This document shows, piece after piece, positions 17,584 to 42,176 of a DNA stretch of 59,195 nt. This DNA comes from Thermoanaerobaculia bacterium. Lineage in GTDB: Bacteria; Acidobacteriota; Thermoanaerobaculia; Thermoanaerobaculales; Sulfomarinibacteraceae. The position numbers and the translations under genes are program-made. Every line of letters starts with the position of its first letter. Position 1 is the first letter of the stretch. The notes under the pieces are model-generated. The model did no database searches, was not told the origin of the DNA, and saw only the letters and a list, made by a program, of their open reading frames with translations. The stretch spans positions 1 to 59,195 of the forward strand of contig JAMOWA010000013.1 in assembly GCA_027061805.1 (NCBI GenBank), read 5' to 3'.

Positions 17584-17607
17584 GCGCCCCGCCAGGGGGC
17601 GGGGCGC
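17584..17607 (-). terminator. Terminator of the decaheme/MtrB operon
   Basis: A perfect 10-bp stem, GCGCCCCGCC with GGCGGGGCGC. Read on the minus strand it is followed directly by TTTTTC, giving a classic intrinsic terminator about 24 bp after the barrel gene. Confidence 0.85.
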
Positions 17608-17630: not shown

Positions 17631-19766
17631 TCAGAAGGTCCAGCCCAGGTAACCGGTCAGGACGTTGATGGAGCCCGTGGTGTCGTAGAGGTAGGGCTGC
17701 TTGTCATCGAACTTGGCGTATCGGTAGCGGCCCCCGATGTAGAGGCCCTTGTTGATGTGGAAGTTTGCGAGGAACGAGACATCCCACCTGGAGACGTCCA
17801 GTCCGGAGTACTCCGGTGTCCGGGAGAAGTCGAACATCGTGGAGGGGTGGGTCGCCATGTAGTCGCCGGCGGGCAGGTCGAAGGGATCGATCTTGCCGTC
17901 GGAGGACGACCAGGTCAGGTCGAGACCCAGGTCCCACCGCTCGGTGGGGCTGAAGTGGACACCGGCCATCAGGGTGTTCGTCGTGGATCCGTAGGAGAGG
18001 CGGTCGATCGCGTAGCCATCCTGGCCACCCATGATGCCGCCTGCTCACCCATCGAAGATCGGTATGGTGGTCGGTGCGTCCAGCGAGCTGTCCAGCCAGC
18101 TGTACCCCGCGAACCAGGTCCACCTGGAGATGGGGCTGCTGGAGAACATGACGGTGAACGACTGGTTCGTCCGGGACCAGTCCGTCAGGTCCCCATCCGA
18201 GTTGTCCCCGTTCCACCACCTGTAGGCGGCGTTGAACACGGAGGTTGCGCTCACGTTGAACGTGGCCGCGAGCCGGATCTCGTCCCAGCTCGAGGGCAGG
18301 GCCGTGCCGTCACCGATCCTCGCATCCTGGAACTGGAAGTACTGGGGCGAGCTGAAGGGGTTCCTGTACGGTGGCGACTCCAGGGTCGAGGCCAGCTGGT
18401 TGAGCGACATGAACGGGTTGTCCACGCTCGCGTGCCGGTACCGCGCGTCCAGGCGCCACTTCCTGGCAGGCCGCGCCCGCCAGGAGATCCCCAGCAGGTT
18501 GGTGGTGGTCGTGGTGTCTCCCGAATCCGTGACCGCGAAATGGTCACGGTCCACGGACCTGTAGTTCCAGGTGAACTTCAGCGTGCCGGTCTTCCTGCCG
18601 AAGCGGTAGGAGAGGTCGGCATTGGACTCGACGGTGCTCCGGTTGAGGGCGGACTGCCGCAGGAAGTTGGGCTCGAAGTTGTAGAGCTCCCGGTAGGTCC
18701 TGCCCGCGGTGGGCCCGGCGACGGAGGTCCGCTCGTTGGTCTCCACGGAGAAGTCGTCGTTGTCCAGCGTGTAGACCCTGCCGCGCCAGCGGAGCCGCCA
18801 TCCCCTGCCCAGACGTCCGGCCACGGTGGCCATGTAGCCGCTGTAGGAGGCCTTGAGCCCGGTGTACCTGTTCTCGGTCTCCGACCACACGCCGGTCCCG
18901 GTCAGGTAGAACCCCTTCCCCAGGTCCTGTTGCAGGTCGAGACGGGCGATGCCCTTGTCGATGTCGGGCATCATGTCCACCGGCATGGGACCCTCGGCGG
19001 AGTCGTACTGCAGCCGGTCGTCGAAGAGCGGCTTGCGCTTCTCGGGATGCAGCGCGTCGTCGTAGGTCACGCTCAGTGACCGGTAGTTTTCCCGGTGCTT
19101 CCGGGCGGTGTACCGCGCCGTGATCCCGCCGCTGTGCCAGGCAAGCCTGGCCTCCAGGGCGGCATCCCGCGTGTGCTCGTTGATCGGCCGGTTCATGCCG
19201 TTCACGTGGCAGGTGTCGCAGTGGGAGAGCACGAGCGCCTGCCTGTGCCCCTCCCTGTGCTGGTCCCGGAACTCCACGGCGAAGGTGAGCATCTCGGCCC
19301 CGGGGAACTGGAACTCGGTCCGGTTGTGGAGCACGGCGTAGGTCAGGTCGTAGGTGCGCCACGGGTTGTGGTCCTCGTGCTGGACCACCTTTCCGTTGAT
19401 GGAGGTTCCCTCCATGTAGGTCAGCGGATCGTGGCCCAGCCGGTGCAGGAGCTTGGTGTAGGTGGTGTGGGACCGGACCATGCGCTTGATGTCGAAGTCG
19501 AAGGTGGTCGTGGCGTCGTCCGAGTGACGGATATCGGTCTCGAGCTGGAGACCACCCATGTCACCGTGCGAGGCCAGGTTCAGCGTGAACTGGGGACCAC
19601 CCTGGTCGGGTTCGTACTCGGAGACCATGTCGGAAGAGTCCGACGTGGTGGTGCCCCAGGCACCCATCTCGAACGAGCTGGTCGTGGTGCCCTCGTCGCC
19701 GGCCACGGCGAGGAGGGGAAGGCTGACCAGTCCGCCGACGAGGACGATGCGAAGCAGCGTTTTCAT
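17631..19766 (-). CDS. MtrB/PioB-family outer-membrane barrel with in-frame TGA (candidate selenoprotein)
   Basis: Outer-membrane beta-barrel that should sheath the decaheme cytochrome encoded 16 bp upstream. The signal peptide is MKTLLRIVLV to AVAG. Alternating aromatic strands run through the protein and residues 183-187 are CDTCH, a heme-attachment motif inside the barrel protein. The frame is interrupted at codon 574 (TGA, 18045-18047) after PIFDG and continues in frame AGGIMGGQDGYAIDRLSYG to the end. Readthrough gives 711 residues, near the usual size of about 700 for MtrB, and restores further strands and the C-terminal Phe (GYLGWTF) used by the BAM machinery; stopping gives 573 residues without them. 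A SECIS-like hairpin follows. Alternatives are a nonsense mutation or a sequence error. Confidence 0.75.
18012..18047 (-). promoter_or_regulatory. Candidate bacterial SECIS after the TGA in the barrel gene
   Basis: After the TGA (18047-18045) and 16 bases comes GTGGCC-AGGAT-GGCTAC (18028-18012): a 6-bp stem with one G-U pair and a 5-base loop whose second base is G. The distance from the TGA to the loop is 22 bases. Known bacterial SECIS elements place a small hairpin with a G in the first two loop positions about 16-37 bases after UGA. Chance hairpins are common at high GC, so this alone is weak evidence. Confidence 0.45.
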
Positions 19767-19782: not shown

Positions 19783-20673
19783 TCACCGGGTCAGCCCACG
19801 TCCGCTGCCGGGCAGCGTCTGCGAGGGCAGGTCGCTTCCGTGGACGCGGGGGTGACAGGTGGTGCACTTGGTGGTGAATGCGCGGTTCATGCTGTACCGC
19901 CCGTCAGGATTCTCGTACTCGGTGCCACCCACCTCCACCGGGCCGTCCGGGCTCACCAGGGCGGCGTGGAAGTGGAACTCGTGGCACTGGAGGCACAGCA
20001 TGGGCTCGTTGGCCACCAGAAGATTGTTGGCCACGGTCCCGTGGGGATCGTGGCAGATCCTGCAGTCCTCCTCCACCGGCTCGTGCTCGAACACGAACGG
20101 CCCCTCCTGGGCCTGGTGGCAGGTGAAGCACAGGTCGTTGATCCGCCGGTGCGTCCTGAGCTGGGCCTCGGTGGCCAGGTGGGTATCGTGGCAGCTGGAG
20201 CAGGTCATCTTCCCTTCCCGGACCGGATGGTGGGAGGGAAGCTGCATCCGGGCCGCCACATCACCGTGGCAGTCGGTACAGCTGTCGAGGGGATTGCCGG
20301 GGTCGTGGACCGCATGGCAGTCGAAGCAGGTCAGGCCCTCGGCGGCATGGGTCGAGGCGTCCCACTCCGGGAGCCCCTTCTCTCTGTGACAGGCGAGGCA
20401 GGTCCGGGCGTCCTCCGCTGTTGGCCTGGCGAAGGTGCGGATGAGAGCGGGATCGCCCTCCTCCATGTGCCGGGTGCCGTCTCCGTGGCACCCCTCGCAA
20501 CCCGTGGTCCTGCCGGGCACCTCGAAGGGCTTGATCTGCATGTGGATGTTTCCGGCCATCGCTGCGGCGACCTCGTCATGGCAGTCGGCACAGGTGGGGC
20601 CGTCACCGGCTGAAGCCGGCCACGCCACGATGCAGATCAGGCATCCGAGGGCGAGCAGCACTCGTGCTTTCAT
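19783..20673 (-). CDS. DmsE/MtrA-type decaheme c cytochrome
   Basis: 296 residues with a signal peptide (to PASAG, about residue 23) and ten CxxCH heme motifs starting at residues 28, 59, 92, 116, 132, 158, 182, 204, 227 and 270. Ten hemes in about 300 residues is the pattern of MtrA/DmsE periplasmic decaheme wires that insert into an MtrB barrel. That partner follows 16 bp downstream, so the pair should carry electrons across the outer membrane. No surface decaheme (MtrC/OmcA) or reductase gene is next to it, so the external donor or acceptor is open. Confidence 0.93.
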   Translation of the reverse strand: MKARVLLALGCLICIVAWPASAGDGPTCADCHDEVAAAMAGNIHMQIKPFEVPGRTTGCEGCHGDGTRHMEEGDPALIRTFARPTAEDARTCLACHREKGLPEWDASTHAAEGLTCFDCHAVHDPGNPLDSCTDCHGDVAARMQLPSHHPVREGKMTCSSCHDTHLATEAQLRTHRRINDLCFTCHQAQEGPFVFEHEPVEEDCRICHDPHGTVANNLLVANEPMLCLQCHEFHFHAALVSPDGPVEVGGTEYENPDGRYSMNRAFTTKCTTCHPRVHGSDLPSQTLPGSGRGLTR

Positions 20674-21145: not shown

Positions 21146-22561
21146 TCAGTGGGACTTCTGGAACAGGGCCAGGAGGGGATCGCCCTCGTAGCCGAGTCCT
21201 GCCCAGTCGATCCTGCCGCCATCGCTGTGACAGTCGAGGCACCCCAGCGCCTGGGAGGCGGGGGAGACCTCGTGGAACAGTCCCATGTAGTGGACGGTCG
21301 GCATCCAGTCGAACTCGGCGTTGTCGAGGCCGTAGAGCTCGCTCGTGGCCTGGCGGACCGCGTCGGTCATGTCACCGCTCACGTAGAACACGCCGGTCCT
21401 GATGGGGAGGAGCCACCGCTTCTCCGTCAGGACGGGCATCACGGCGTGGTACTCCTTGAAGGCGAAGAGGCGGGAACCGGGATCGTCCTTCGATCCCACG
21501 GGGACCGCCATCATGATCTCGCCCCTGTCGTTGGTGGCGACGGGCTTGCCGGCCTCCTGCATGTGGCTGGTCTTGCCGTTCCACCACCGCAGCACCGGCT
21601 TGACCTCCTTCTCGAAAGTCGCCGTGTAGACGTGCTTGCCCTTCTCCTCGCTGTAGATCCCCTTGGACCAGTCCCGCACCATGTTGGTGGGGTTCTCCTT
21701 GGCGAAGACGGGGATGTGGCAGGCCGTACAGAAGACGCGCTTCGTGTGGGTGTCGAGGATGGCCTGACCATGCGGCTCGGTGCCGTGGCAGTCGTCGTTG
21801 TCGCACTTGATGTTCCTGTCCGGCATCTCGTTGCCCGCGATGTCGGCACCCGGCCCCGGGATCCTGTGGTCCTCGCCGGCGTGGCAGTCGATGCACTGCA
21901 TGTCGTTGCCGTCGGAGGCCATGTGGACGTCGAAGTCCGTGTCGCAGTCGGTCTGCTTGTACTCCAGGTCGCCGCGCTTGAAGTTCGCGCCACCGCCGGA
22001 GGCCGCGTGGCATCGCAGGCACATGGTCCGCGTGGGCAGGGAGATCCGCCTGGACACGGAGTCCAGCCCGACCTGGTTCTTCCAGAGGATGGGCTTCCAC
22101 TCCCAGCCGCCCTCCTCGGTCTCGTAGAGGCCGCGCCGGTACCCGCTGGCGTGGCAGATGAGGCAGTCCATGTTCTCCATCTCGGCATCGGTCAGTTCCT
22201 CGCCGGGAAGCGTGCCGTTGCCGGGGTGGCACTTGGAGCAGCCCTCCTCCACGACCTTGCCCTCGGGTGTCACGTACTCACCGATCCACATGGGGACGGG
22301 ATTCGTGCAGTAGTCGTTGATCTGGTTGATCTTGCCCAGCTTCTTGCCCTCGGCGCCCACCACGTTCGAGGCCTCGGCCTTCCACTGGTAGTGCTGGGAG
22401 TGGAAGAAGGTCCGGGCCTGCTTCTTGTGGCATTTCAGGCAGGTCTTCGTTCCCTCGTAGTGCTCGAAGTACTTCTGGTGGGAATAGGTTTTCCTGGCGA
22501 CGGCCGGCGTGGCCAGCAGACCGGCCACGGTGACCGCCAGAAGGATCTGTTTCGTTCGCAT
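21146..22561 (-). CDS. Octaheme c cytochrome (tetrathionate reductase/OTR-like) with one CX4CH site
   Basis: 471 residues counted from the ATG at 22561, which has AGGAGG eight bases upstream; an ATG at 22567 is too close to it. A signal peptide ends near AVARK. Seven CxxCH motifs begin at residues 41, 108, 133, 181, 223, 278 and 441, and one CX4CH (CDNDDCH) at 253, giving eight hemes. Size, heme number and spacing resemble the octaheme tetrathionate reductase family, which also reduces nitrite and hydroxylamine in vitro; the true substrate is unclear. It is the last gene of an operon with a monoheme cytochrome and a DUF3373 porin, so it may act on a substrate admitted by, or electrons passed through, that porin. 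Confidence 0.8.
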   Translation of the reverse strand: MRTKQILLAVTVAGLLATPAVARKTYSHQKYFEHYEGTKTCLKCHKKQARTFFHSQHYQWKAEASNVVGAEGKKLGKINQINDYCTNPVPMWIGEYVTPEGKVVEEGCSKCHPGNGTLPGEELTDAEMENMDCLICHASGYRRGLYETEEGGWEWKPILWKNQVGLDSVSRRISLPTRTMCLRCHAASGGGANFKRGDLEYKQTDCDTDFDVHMASDGNDMQCIDCHAGEDHRIPGPGADIAGNEMPDRNIKCDNDDCHGTEPHGQAILDTHTKRVFCTACHIPVFAKENPTNMVRDWSKGIYSEEKGKHVYTATFEKEVKPVLRWWNGKTSHMQEAGKPVATNDRGEIMMAVPVGSKDDPGSRLFAFKEYHAVMPVLTEKRWLLPIRTGVFYVSGDMTDAVRQATSELYGLDNAEFDWMPTVHYMGLFHEVSPASQALGCLDCHSDGGRIDWAGLGYEGDPLLALFQKSH

Positions 22562-22574
22562 CTCCATCGCCTCC

Positions 22575-24284
22575 TCAGAACCGGGCGATCAGGCCCAGGG
22601 TGAACATGGATGCGCTGTCGTAGGTGGGGAAGCCGAGGATCGGCGTGGAATCGAGCTTCTTGGGGGCTCCCAGGTGCCAGCCGGAGCCCGAGTAGTCGTG
22701 GTCGTAGTTGATGTAGGCGACCTTGAGCTGGAAGTTCTTGTTGATCTTGTGGAAGAAGTACCCCTCCCAGACGTCGCCGCGGGTGGCCGTCTTGGCCCCG
22801 ATGAGGTCGTCCTGGGCCGGCGTGAAGTTGAACCAGTACTTGGAACCGTGGTTGTACTCGAGGCCGATGGCGGTGCGGTCGTTGTTGAAGTTCCACTTGG
22901 CGCCGATGTACCACATGTCCCCACTGTGGGAGGTGGGGGTCTCGAAGGGATCCGACAGCAGTCCGCCGAACGGCGTGGTCACGTTGTCCGGGTGGGACTT
23001 GGAGTAGTTCAGGTTGATGAACCAGTCGAAGGGGCCGTCCCGCCGCATGAGCAGGATGCCGGCCATGTCGAAGTCACCCAGGTTGGCCGAGGGCGAGAAC
23101 CGCATGACCATGGGGGCGGGAACGGGGTTGCCCGTGACCGGGTCGGTGGGCAGCACCACCATGCCGTTGAAGCCGTCGGTGACGTCGAAGGCCCGGGCCA
23201 CGGTGGTCTGGATCAGCATGTCGTCGGTGTTCCAGATATCCCAGTTGAGGCCCAGGAACCACGCGTCGTCGAGCCACGTGTCGTTGGCGAGAACCTGGCC
23301 GTTGCCGAAGCCGGACTCGTAGCCCACGCCGTAGCAGAGGCGGACGGTGGAGTTGTCGTTGATGTGCCACCCGAAGGTGATGCCGTCGAACTGCATGTCG
23401 ATGAGTGAACCCATGGGGGTTCCGCCGCGCAGCTCGTTCTGGCGGAGGTTGAGGGGCGGCCCGCTGGTGGACGGGCGGCGGCCGATGGACAGGTAGATGG
23501 GAGCTCCACCGATGTCCTTCCAGGTGAAGTAGGCACGCTCCACCCGAAGGATGTCGGAGTTGGGGACCCCGACGGTGTTGCCGTCGATGTTGATGCTGTT
23601 GGACTGGCCGTTGAAGACCTGCACACCGGTGGAGTCACCCCAGGCCTTGTACATGGAGAGCCGGCCCGTGAAGGACACGTTGTCGGCCACCCGGGCGTCG
23701 ATGTTGAGCCGCAGCCGGTTGGTGTACATCAGGCTGTTGTCGTGGTCGTAGCCCTTCTGGTAGGTGGAGGGGAGCAGCATCTGCATGAGGGGGCCGAACA
23801 TCTCGGGCGGGATCTGGCCCACGGCGTCCTTGATCTGATCGAAGGTGATCTGGGACAGGAACATCTGGTACTGGTCGAAGTTCTGGGCGATGAAGCCGTA
23901 GACGTCGTCGAGGCTGCCCGGGGGCATCCCGGTGGCGCCCATGTAGAACATGGTGTCCACCATGCCCTTCTGGAGCGCCATGCCGTTGAAGTGGTTGGGG
24001 ATGCTGGTCGAGATGCTGTTGGCCTCGAACCGGAAATCGCCGGTGAAGTTGATCCGGTCCAGCGCGGTCTTCCGCTGGTTGTTCATGACGACCTTCCTGG
24101 TCCTCTTCTGCTTCTTCTCGTTCCTGGTGACCTGCTTCTCCAGGGCGTCGAGCCTCTGCTGGAGCTGCTGGATGGTCTGCTTGAGGGACTGGATCTCCTC
24201 CACGGTGGGGTCGGTGGTCTGGGCGAGCACCGGCCCGGCAGCCAGGAGAAGCACGACGACAGCGACGATCAGAGAGTTGCGCAT
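22575..24284 (-). CDS. DUF3373 family outer-membrane protein
   Basis: 569 residues. I chose the ATG at 24284 because AAGGAGGAAAG precedes it and the signal peptide (MRNSLIVAVVVLLLAAGPVLAQ) begins there. Residues 24-62 form a heptad coiled coil (EEIQSLKQTIQQLQQRLDAL), as in porins tethered in the periplasm. The rest is aromatic amphipathic beta sequence ending in a C-terminal Phe (GLIARF), typical of a BAM-inserted barrel. DUF3373 proteins are repeatedly found beside multiheme cytochromes in metal-reducing and other anaerobic bacteria. Here the gene sits between a monoheme and an octaheme cytochrome. Confidence 0.88.
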   Translation of the reverse strand: MRNSLIVAVVVLLLAAGPVLAQTTDPTVEEIQSLKQTIQQLQQRLDALEKQVTRNEKKQKRTRKVVMNNQRKTALDRINFTGDFRFEANSISTSIPNHFNGMALQKGMVDTMFYMGATGMPPGSLDDVYGFIAQNFDQYQMFLSQITFDQIKDAVGQIPPEMFGPLMQMLLPSTYQKGYDHDNSLMYTNRLRLNIDARVADNVSFTGRLSMYKAWGDSTGVQVFNGQSNSINIDGNTVGVPNSDILRVERAYFTWKDIGGAPIYLSIGRRPSTSGPPLNLRQNELRGGTPMGSLIDMQFDGITFGWHINDNSTVRLCYGVGYESGFGNGQVLANDTWLDDAWFLGLNWDIWNTDDMLIQTTVARAFDVTDGFNGMVVLPTDPVTGNPVPAPMVMRFSPSANLGDFDMAGILLMRRDGPFDWFINLNYSKSHPDNVTTPFGGLLSDPFETPTSHSGDMWYIGAKWNFNNDRTAIGLEYNHGSKYWFNFTPAQDDLIGAKTATRGDVWEGYFFHKINKNFQLKVAYINYDHDYSGSGWHLGAPKKLDSTPILGFPTYDSASMFTLGLIARF

Positions 24285-24354
24285 CTTTCCTCCTTGTCCT
24301 TCATCCTTCTCGAAAAGGGTCACGTCCCGGATTGAAGGTCCGAGCGCGCCTCCA

Positions 24355-24714
24355 TCAACCGCAGGTCATGGGGTGTTCGGAATCGGCCGCGTGGTCGATG
24401 GCGAACTTCTTGATCTTCTCGAGCATCTCGGGGGTGATGACCTCCGTGACCTTCTTGCCGCCGTGGGCCGTGTCCACCACGTCCTTGTGGGTGTCCACGT
24501 AGGTGTCCGAGAAGAACTCCTCCCACTGGTCCTGGATGAGGGTCATGGGCGTGTACTCACCGTTGTCCGAGTCCGCACCGTGACACACCTTGCAGTGCTC
24601 CTTGAAGAGGGCCTGACCGTCCATCTTCTTGTCCCTGGCGTTGGCGAGCCCGGACAGGGCGATGACGACCATGCCTGCCACCACGATGCTGGCGATCTTC
24701 CACGTACGATGCAT
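24355..24714 (-). CDS. Monoheme c-type cytochrome
   Basis: 119 residues with a signal peptide (to SGLANA) and one CxxCH (CKVCH, near residue 41) in the class I context GQALFKEHCKVCHGADSDNG. A Met near residue 57 (YTPMTL) or 115 could be the axial ligand. It is likely a small periplasmic electron shuttle for the octaheme cytochrome encoded downstream. The ATG at 24714 follows AAGGAGGTCGAA. First gene of the operon. Confidence 0.9.
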   Translation of the reverse strand: MHRTWKIASIVVAGMVVIALSGLANARDKKMDGQALFKEHCKVCHGADSDNGEYTPMTLIQDQWEEFFSDTYVDTHKDVVDTAHGGKKVTEVITPEMLEKIKKFAIDHAADSEHPMTCG

Positions 24715-24790
24715 TTCGACCTCCTTGTGCTTCTGTTCACAGTCACCGGCCTGCCCCGATTTCGGGAGGCCGGATCGGCGTCTATTTGTG

Positions 24791-24819
24791 AAAATATGCT
24801 CAACCAGGGATGTTGTCAA
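24791..24819 (-). promoter_or_regulatory. Sigma-70 promoter of the cytochrome/DUF3373/octaheme operon
   Basis: On the minus strand, TTGACA (24819-24814), a 17-base spacer and TATTTT (24796-24791). This is the best promoter match in the window. The TTCACAAATA that overlaps its 3' end resembles the TTGTGAATG at the other cytochrome promoter, a possible shared operator. Confidence 0.75.
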
Positions 24820-24969
24820 GTCTGTGCAACTGTCTTTCTGTGCCGTGCCCGCAGAGTGGGGGTTCCCCATGCGCGGGACCCCGGGAATCCACCGGGGGAG
24901 CCCGTGGGATGGGAACGGGTCGGGCGGGAGTCCACCGCAACCGGCGGGTGGACCGGGATCGCTGACAGT

Positions 24970-40738: not shown

Positions 40739-42076
40739 TCAGTCGCCCAGCAGGGTCTCGATCTCCCGGGCGATCTTCGTCTCGTCCCCATCGTCGAAGC
40801 CGAGGTGGTAGTACATGATCCTGCCGTCACGGTCGAGGAGGAACGAGGTGGGGAAGACGTGGACCCCGAACGTGCCCCCCACCACGGGATCGTCCTCCCG
40901 GTCCTCGAGGAGGAGGTAGGTGAGGCCCTTCTTCGCGATGAAGTCCTTCGCCCTGGCGGTGTCCCGGAAGGCCTCCACGGCCACGATCGCGAGACCCCTG
41001 TCCCCGTAGGTGGTGTGGAGCTCCTGCAGGCGCGGCAACTCCGCGCGGCAGCCGCCTCAGGTGGGGAACCAGAAGGCCAGGAGCGTGACCTTCCCCAGCT
41101 CCTTCGAGAGGGTGTGATCGTTGCCCTCGTAGTCGGCGAGGGTGAAGTCGTCCACCGGGCGGGCGAGCTGCTGGCGGGTCGTCCAGAGCCACTCCTCCAG
41201 GCCGTCCGTGGAACCGTGCTTCCCCCTCCATGCCGTCTCCACACCACGCATGGCCTCGGCGTCGCCGCCCATGATGGCCAGGGGGGCGAGCAGCTCCAGG
41301 GCCCGGTCCCAGTCCTGCTGCTCCAGGGCGATCCGGCCCCGGAAGGAGGCGGCCGGCGAGGTGGGCAGGCCCACGTAGTTCCTCGCGGACTTCTCCATGG
41401 CGGCGGCGAAGAGTGCCTCGGCCTCTTCCACGTTCCCCGTGCTCGCCAGTGCCAGGGCCCTGTAGGCCAGGGCCTCGGAGGCCCGGCTGTCGGCCATCTT
41501 CCGCAGGGCCTCCTCGTCCTTTCCCTTGCCCCGGCGGCTGGCGGCGCACGCCTCGGGCGTGGCCAGGGCCAGGGCGGCCTCCGATCGTGCAAGCACGAGA
41601 TCCCAGTCCTTCGCGGCGGTGGCCTCCTCGAGGACGGAGATGGTCTCGTCCCAGTTCAGGGGACGCTCCTTCTCCAGCGCGGCGACGGCTCCGGCCAGGT
41701 CCACCGGTCTGCCGAGGTCACGGGCCAGGGGAGCGAGGATGAGCGTGATCTTCAGGCGGCGGGCCGGGTCCTCGTTGGCCTCCAGGACCCCCGTCAGGGT
41801 CTCGTAGGCCTGCTCCTTCTGCCCCAGCTCGTTGCCCCGGTACTCGGCCACCACCCAGGCAAAGCTTCTGGCGTGCTTGCCGTCGGGGAACTCCTTCAGG
41901 TAGGACTCCGCGATGGCGGCCTTGGCCTCGGGTGTCTCGGCGTCGTGGTAGGCCGACTTCGCGGCCTCGTAGGCCTCCGCCTCGGTCCGTGCGGGAGCGT
42001 TCTCCCGCCTGGTGCAGGCGGGAAGGACGATCAGGACCACCGCGAGCACGGTGACGAGTGGGACGAATTTCCGCAT
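40739..42076 (-). CDS. Selenocysteine-containing TlpA/redoxin-type lipoprotein with TPR-like N-terminal region
   Basis: 445 residues if the TGA at codon 340 (41057-41059) is read as selenocysteine. The N-terminus is a lipoprotein signal (MRKFVPLVTVLAVV, lipobox LPAC). Residues 25-300 are helical, TPR-like. The C-terminal redoxin domain runs FTLADYEGND, KVTLLAFWFPT, then TGA, then GGCRAELPRLQELHTTYGDR, VHVFPTSFLLDRDG. The TGA falls exactly on the first Cys of the thioredoxin CxxC (WCxxC), giving U340-G-G-C343. Both halves are in one frame and one fold, so a random nonsense mutation is unlikely. A SECIS-like hairpin follows. The predicted role is periplasmic thiol/selenol peroxide or disulfide reduction. 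The ATG at 42076 follows GAGGAGAAGCCC. Confidence 0.9.
41024..41059 (-). promoter_or_regulatory. Candidate bacterial SECIS of the redoxin gene
   Basis: After the TGA and ten bases comes GCGCGG-AGTTG-CCGCGC (41046-41030), a perfect 6-bp stem with a 5-base loop carrying G at its second position. It is extended by an outer CTGC/GCAG stem (41051-41048 with 41027-41024). Loop distance from the TGA is 16 bases. Size and placement match the minimal 17-nt SelB-binding hairpin of E. coli fdhF; the bulged U of fdhF is absent. Confidence 0.7.
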
Positions 42077-42176
42077 GGGCTTCTCCTCTTGCTGCCGGAC
42101 CCTCACGTGACTTCCAGCATTGAGCACCCGTGAAGTCTAACGCGTCCTCTCCGGGGCCGCCACCGGCCGGGTGCCC

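Follow-up and report, generated by a model that had tools for sequence, protein, structure and literature searches.

The barrel gene on the minus strand of the window (the whole stretch of DNA that was analysed, 59,195 nucleotides from a Thermoanaerobaculia bacterium) very probably encodes a selenoprotein of the GSU2204 family, i.e. an MtrB/PioB-type outer-membrane barrel in which UGA codon 574 would be read as selenocysteine (Sec) by means of a SECIS-type hairpin, and which would form an electron conduit with an MtrA-like cytochrome and probably hold its Sec at the electron exit. Computation established the signals for Sec decoding, the family assignment, the neighbouring partner gene and the fold prediction; from these we infer which side is extracellular, that haem is attached, which way electrons flow and what selenium does. 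The features concerned are listed in Table 1.

Table 1. Features of the barrel locus and of the second candidate selenoprotein gene (positions in the window)
Feature	Positions	Strand	Basis
GSU2204-family MtrB/PioB-type outer-membrane barrel selenoprotein (predicted), 711 aa, Sec574	17631..19766	-	frame; NF041027, 547 bits; homologues with TGA at the site; MtrB fold
UGA codon 574, selenocysteine (predicted)	18045..18047	-	TGA in 55 and TGC in 2 of 57 distinct homologous sites
SECIS-type hairpin GTGGCC-AGGAT-GGCTAC	18012..18028	-	covariation above 500 of 500 shuffles; GGC 99 of 101 Gly codons; lost in two Cys forms
CXXCH haem c motif CDTCH, residues 183-187	19206..19220	-	no variation at C183, C186 and H187 across 44 members
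Intrinsic-terminator-like hairpin after the second stop	17584..17607	-	10 G-C pairs, then a T run
GSU2203-family decaheme c-type cytochrome, MtrA-like partner, 10 CXXCH	19783..20673	-	NF041028, 357 bits; like 6r2q_A; conserved upstream of homologues
ResA/TlpA-like thioredoxin-fold protein (redoxin)	40739-42136	-	in-frame TGA 41059-41057 in WFPT-U-GGC

The reading frame of the barrel gene was considered first. Read through its internal TGA, the minus-strand frame 19766-17631 gives 711 residues ending in ...YLGWTF. TGA occurs only once inside this frame, as codon 574 (18047-18045), and is also the terminal codon. The N-terminus, judged by eye, resembles a signal peptide, MKTLLRIVLVGGLVSLPLLAVAGD. 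On the minus strand no terminator-like hairpin was found between TGA574 and the second stop; one lies after that stop, at 17607-17584. An earlier note, made from the sequence alone, had described these same elements: a TGA at codon 574, a barrel-like frame running past it to a final Phe for 711 residues in all, a terminator after the second part only, and a 17-nt hairpin (stem of 6 pairs, loop of 5 nt with G in second place) starting 16 nt past the TGA. Every detail of that observation proved correct, the hairpin lying at 18028-18012. Annotators unaware of the Sec family would label this gene truncated.

The family of the protein was then examined. NCBIfam model NF041027 ("GSU2204 family CXXCH-containing (seleno)protein, part 1") matches it with 547 bits for a cut-off of 350 and stops at residue 573, the last one ahead of UGA574; it also matches each of the 44 aligned relatives. 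PF11854 (MtrB_PioB) matches the window barrel weakly, at 26.6 bits for a cut-off of 23, and also matches 26 of the 44 relatives; TIGR03509 is matched by 12 of the 44 relatives and not by the window barrel. The family is already known as a predicted selenoprotein family, since it is covered by NF041027 and since two reviews count an MtrB/PioB outer-membrane barrel among selenoproteins (PMC9312934, and PMC13188914 with NF041027); no mention of the GSU2204 family was found in some of the papers cited for the families concerned. The proposal of a new, undescribed selenoprotein family, made in the earlier note, must therefore be abandoned: the barrel is a genuine new acidobacterial member of the known GSU2204 family. 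This family, catalogued but little discussed, receives independent support here, and is common in uncultured Acidobacteriota.

The decaheme gene just upstream belongs to the GSU2203 family (357 bits against NF041028, cut-off 325) and its product resembles 6r2q_A, which comes from the Mtr entry that also contains 6r2q_B (the molecule name printed there misfits the entry). Nearly all homologous loci with enough DNA have a decaheme gene upstream in the same orientation, the exceptions being partial genes. In Geobacter cultures, transcripts of GSU2203 and GSU2204 go up with hematite and magnetite (PMC4070692). Further upstream on the same strand, positions 21146-24870 encode a DUF3373 protein and two cytochromes, a small cytochrome c and a multihaem one that resembles the octaheme tetrathionate reductase family; these genes possibly belong to the same electron-transfer cluster as the barrel.

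AlphaFold predicts the read-through protein to be a barrel of 26 strands (mean pLDDT 87.8, pTM 0.81), of which strands 22-26 follow residue 574. Superposed on MtrB (6r2q_B), it gives Z 28.1 and rmsd 3.0 for 577 residues, over residues 25-711, the next chain reaching Z 17.6; Foldseek likewise ranks 6r2q_B first (E 4.2e-22). The assignment to the MtrB/PioB-type conduits, already made in the earlier note, is well supported by this fold match and by the adjoining MtrA-like decaheme gene. The two faces of the model differ: on one, which bears both termini, turns have a mean length of 3.5, and on the other loops have a mean length of 18. Sec574 is located at the tip of hairpin 549-574/577-605, and the CXXCH motif (183-187) at the tip of 160-181/185-210; by topology both would be on the extracellular side. 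Among the residues conserved at 90% or more, 36 of 37 fall in the half that is extracellular by topology (Fisher p 7e-7, residues taken as independent). The gathering of conserved residues on that side, where by topology the haem motif and Sec also lie, points to the electron exit as functional site of the barrel, with a putative haem plus selenium. The concrete model offered is that the conserved face is an extracellular cap holding Sec and the haem motif.

The proposed mechanism is as follows: SelB and Sec-tRNA(Sec) would read UGA574 as selenocysteine via the SECIS hairpin; translation would go on through five more barrel strands to the C-terminal Phe; and the MtrB-type barrel would sheathe the decaheme cytochrome, so that the two proteins together would move electrons through the outer membrane. 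At the tip of its long beta-hairpin, on the same side as CXXCH, Sec574 would most likely act at the electron exit, either in redox chemistry or as a ligand of haem. Four candidates are considered for the chemical role of selenium: haem ligand, redox relay, catalytic site and crosslink. A more specific version, which we find rather improbable, joins Sec574 with a covalently bound haem c at the extracellular mouth of the barrel into one redox site, with the selenolate possibly as haem ligand or catalytic centre, taking over the exit role of MtrC after the decaheme wire. If true, the bacterium would carry on its surface a terminal site that works with selenium. If selenium does sit at the electron exit, selenium supply would affect extracellular electron transfer in soils and sediments.

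The main competitor of this placement accepts the insertion of Sec and locates it away from the electron exit, where it would serve structure, perhaps by a selenide-sulfide crosslink within the surface cap, or protect against oxidants. It agrees with the surroundings of Sec574, in which no CXXU or UXXC motif is present and just G-U-A/G is invariant, but the MtrB-like barrel, the adjoining decaheme gene and an invariant CXXCH located on the side of Sec574 speak for a redox function, and we regard this alternative as a serious possibility that we do not prefer.

Conservation of the UGA codon was analysed in homologues from three sources: 197 related genomes, of which 36 have a match; 396 genomes drawn from the phylum, overlapping the first set, of which 43 have one; and a search of named genomes with a DNA pattern of the Sec site, which returned 38 stretches, 36 in homologous frames and two by chance (L053, L067). 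After removal of duplicates, 57 distinct site sequences were obtained. The codon is TGA in 55 of them and TGC in the other two; this alignment, proposed in the earlier note as a check, thus shows neither Trp nor random residues at the site. Homologues with TGA span many genera and several phyla, the records including Desulfobacterales, Deltaproteobacteria and one Proteobacteria MAG; named relatives are mostly Acidobacteriota, many of them Thermoanaerobaculales, and the nearest row to the window barrel in the tree is an Acidobacteriota MAG (L050). The commonest motif of the site is (D/N)G-U-(A/G)(G/A)....GQ(D/F)G. In most of eight pairs of relatives, dN/dS is alike before and after the TGA.

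The two TGC forms (L102 and L103, in genomes G475 and G266) are full-length Cys proteins which keep the protein motif and have lost the hairpin: 4 of 7 pairs are left in L102 and 2 of 7 in L103, and the inner G-C pair beside two C-G pairs is gone in both. Neither a SelA match nor a tRNA-Sec above the cut-off was found in these two genomes; the tRNA-Sec result for G112 is left out of the evidence. Genomes were compared by SelA because tRNA-Sec scores were ambiguous in three of them (G050, G163, G176): SelA is present in 31 of the 34 TGA-form genomes tested, and was not found in G116, G191 and G339, which are draft MAGs. In the tree the Cys forms make one clade on a long branch amid Sec forms, a placement consistent with a single Sec-to-Cys change in this small sample of two forms from one genus. 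A scan of genome contigs with the alignment, Sec being written as Cys, gave 62 matches to a narrow pattern, outside which the TGC forms (EGCGGA) fall, and no relatives.

Some individual loci deserve a separate mention. Distant stop-free homologues covering part of the profile were seen in G262 (C1:2155454-2157052), G204 and G288, and are perhaps paralogues without the Sec site. L041 (G107) has a second in-frame TGA 40 codons past the Sec site, with no obvious counterpart in relatives, which is probably an error or a pseudogene mutation. L111 (G022) has a TAA in the barrel frame and an upstream decaheme frame with fewer haem motifs; this locus is possibly decaying or frameshifted. The contig of L073 is labelled Armatimonadota, and its site is nearly identical to that of the acidobacterial L064; it is likely mis-binned.

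The hairpin was evaluated by comparison, as the folding energy of the window's hairpin by itself is not significant (z -0.5) and the case for a SECIS therefore rests on the comparative evidence. Among 44 distinct sequences, stem pairing is 95.1% against 82.0% in shuffles, and two-sided changes occupy 39 cells against 15.0; in both cases none of 500 shuffles reaches the observed value, and pairing is destroyed when the partner strand is slid. The two outer pairs vary among the types GC, CG, UA, AU and UG. Of 101 Gly codons at the two Gly positions inside the hairpin, 99 are GGC, and elsewhere in these genes GGC accounts for 50% of Gly codons, an excess with log10 P of -32 (uncorrected for the relatedness of the sequences). 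In the divergent clade L112-L114 a different hairpin, CCGAC-GGT-GTCGG or a near variant, is found at the same place.

The genome behind the window (contig C13) is a draft of 3.1 Mb in 68 contigs, 97% complete. The earlier note had advised a test for sel genes, and a search of the genome for tRNA-Sec, SelA and SelB found each of them: a tRNA-Sec (78.3 bits; called SeC with anticodon tca by ARAGORN), SelA (476 bits) and SelB (335 bits, scored with neighbours in frame). Decoding of UGA574 as selenocysteine, as that note had suggested, is strongly supported, because this machinery is combined with the conserved UGA, the covariation of the SECIS and Cys homologues that lack the hairpin in genomes without SelA or tRNA-Sec matches.

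In a rival reading UGA574 is a true stop, with a barrel of 573 residues and the later 137 codons separate or dead. UGA does serve as a stop in the host genome, the barrel gene itself ends in TGA, and partial termination at low selenium is expected of any selenoprotein. This reading is nevertheless very unlikely: the second part continues the barrel, is conserved in frame and ends in Phe, and the Cys forms read straight through the site. Stopping would delete strands 22-26 and leave an unclosed barrel without the C-terminal Phe. On conservation, fold and TGC evidence together, we reject a split gene. Decoding as another amino acid, such as Trp by a suppressor or a local change of code, is even harder to believe, as the host has tRNA-Sec, SelA and SelB, a SECIS-type hairpin follows the codon, and TGC is the sole substitution observed at the site; on conservation and the TGC substitutions we reject Trp. 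Although the genome is a draft, a fault of sequencing or assembly, or a pseudogene mutation confined to it, has a negligible probability and is in effect already refuted by the conservation of TGA with its hairpin across 55 distinct sites, selection being alike on both sides of the codon.

A second TGA-plus-hairpin gene had been noted on the contig, and it was recovered. In the redoxin gene the in-frame TGA is followed by the hairpin GCGCGG-AGTTG-CCGCGC, equal in stem and loop lengths to that of the barrel gene. On these signals, the redoxin is likely a second selenoprotein of the contig.

The barrel was finally compared with known systems. Cyc2 is similar in idea, with haem c and an outer-membrane barrel within a single chain; by description, its barrel is smaller and bears a haem domain, and it lacks both a decaheme partner and Sec. 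In iron oxidisers it is described as a fused cytochrome-porin (PMC8406198). ExtKL of Geobacter is likewise a predicted selenoprotein tied to a cytochrome cluster and porin genes (PMC5877670, PMC1914089), but it is a Sec-containing five-haem cytochrome of family NF040886, whereas the window protein is a barrel. With MtrB of the Shewanella MtrCAB (6r2q_B; with PioB and DmsF) the window barrel shares the full-length fold, with 26 strands in the model, and an MtrA-like decaheme partner gene; the two differ by an identity of only 11%, and no MtrC-like gene was recognised beside the window barrel. We provisionally take the cap with CXXCH and Sec to be the GSU2204 family's own mark relative to MtrB. 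The closest system is the GSU2204 family itself (NF041027), with which the window barrel shares the score, the CXXCH, the end of the model just before Sec and the adjacent GSU2203-type decaheme gene, and from which it shows no essential difference, the window barrel being acidobacterial.
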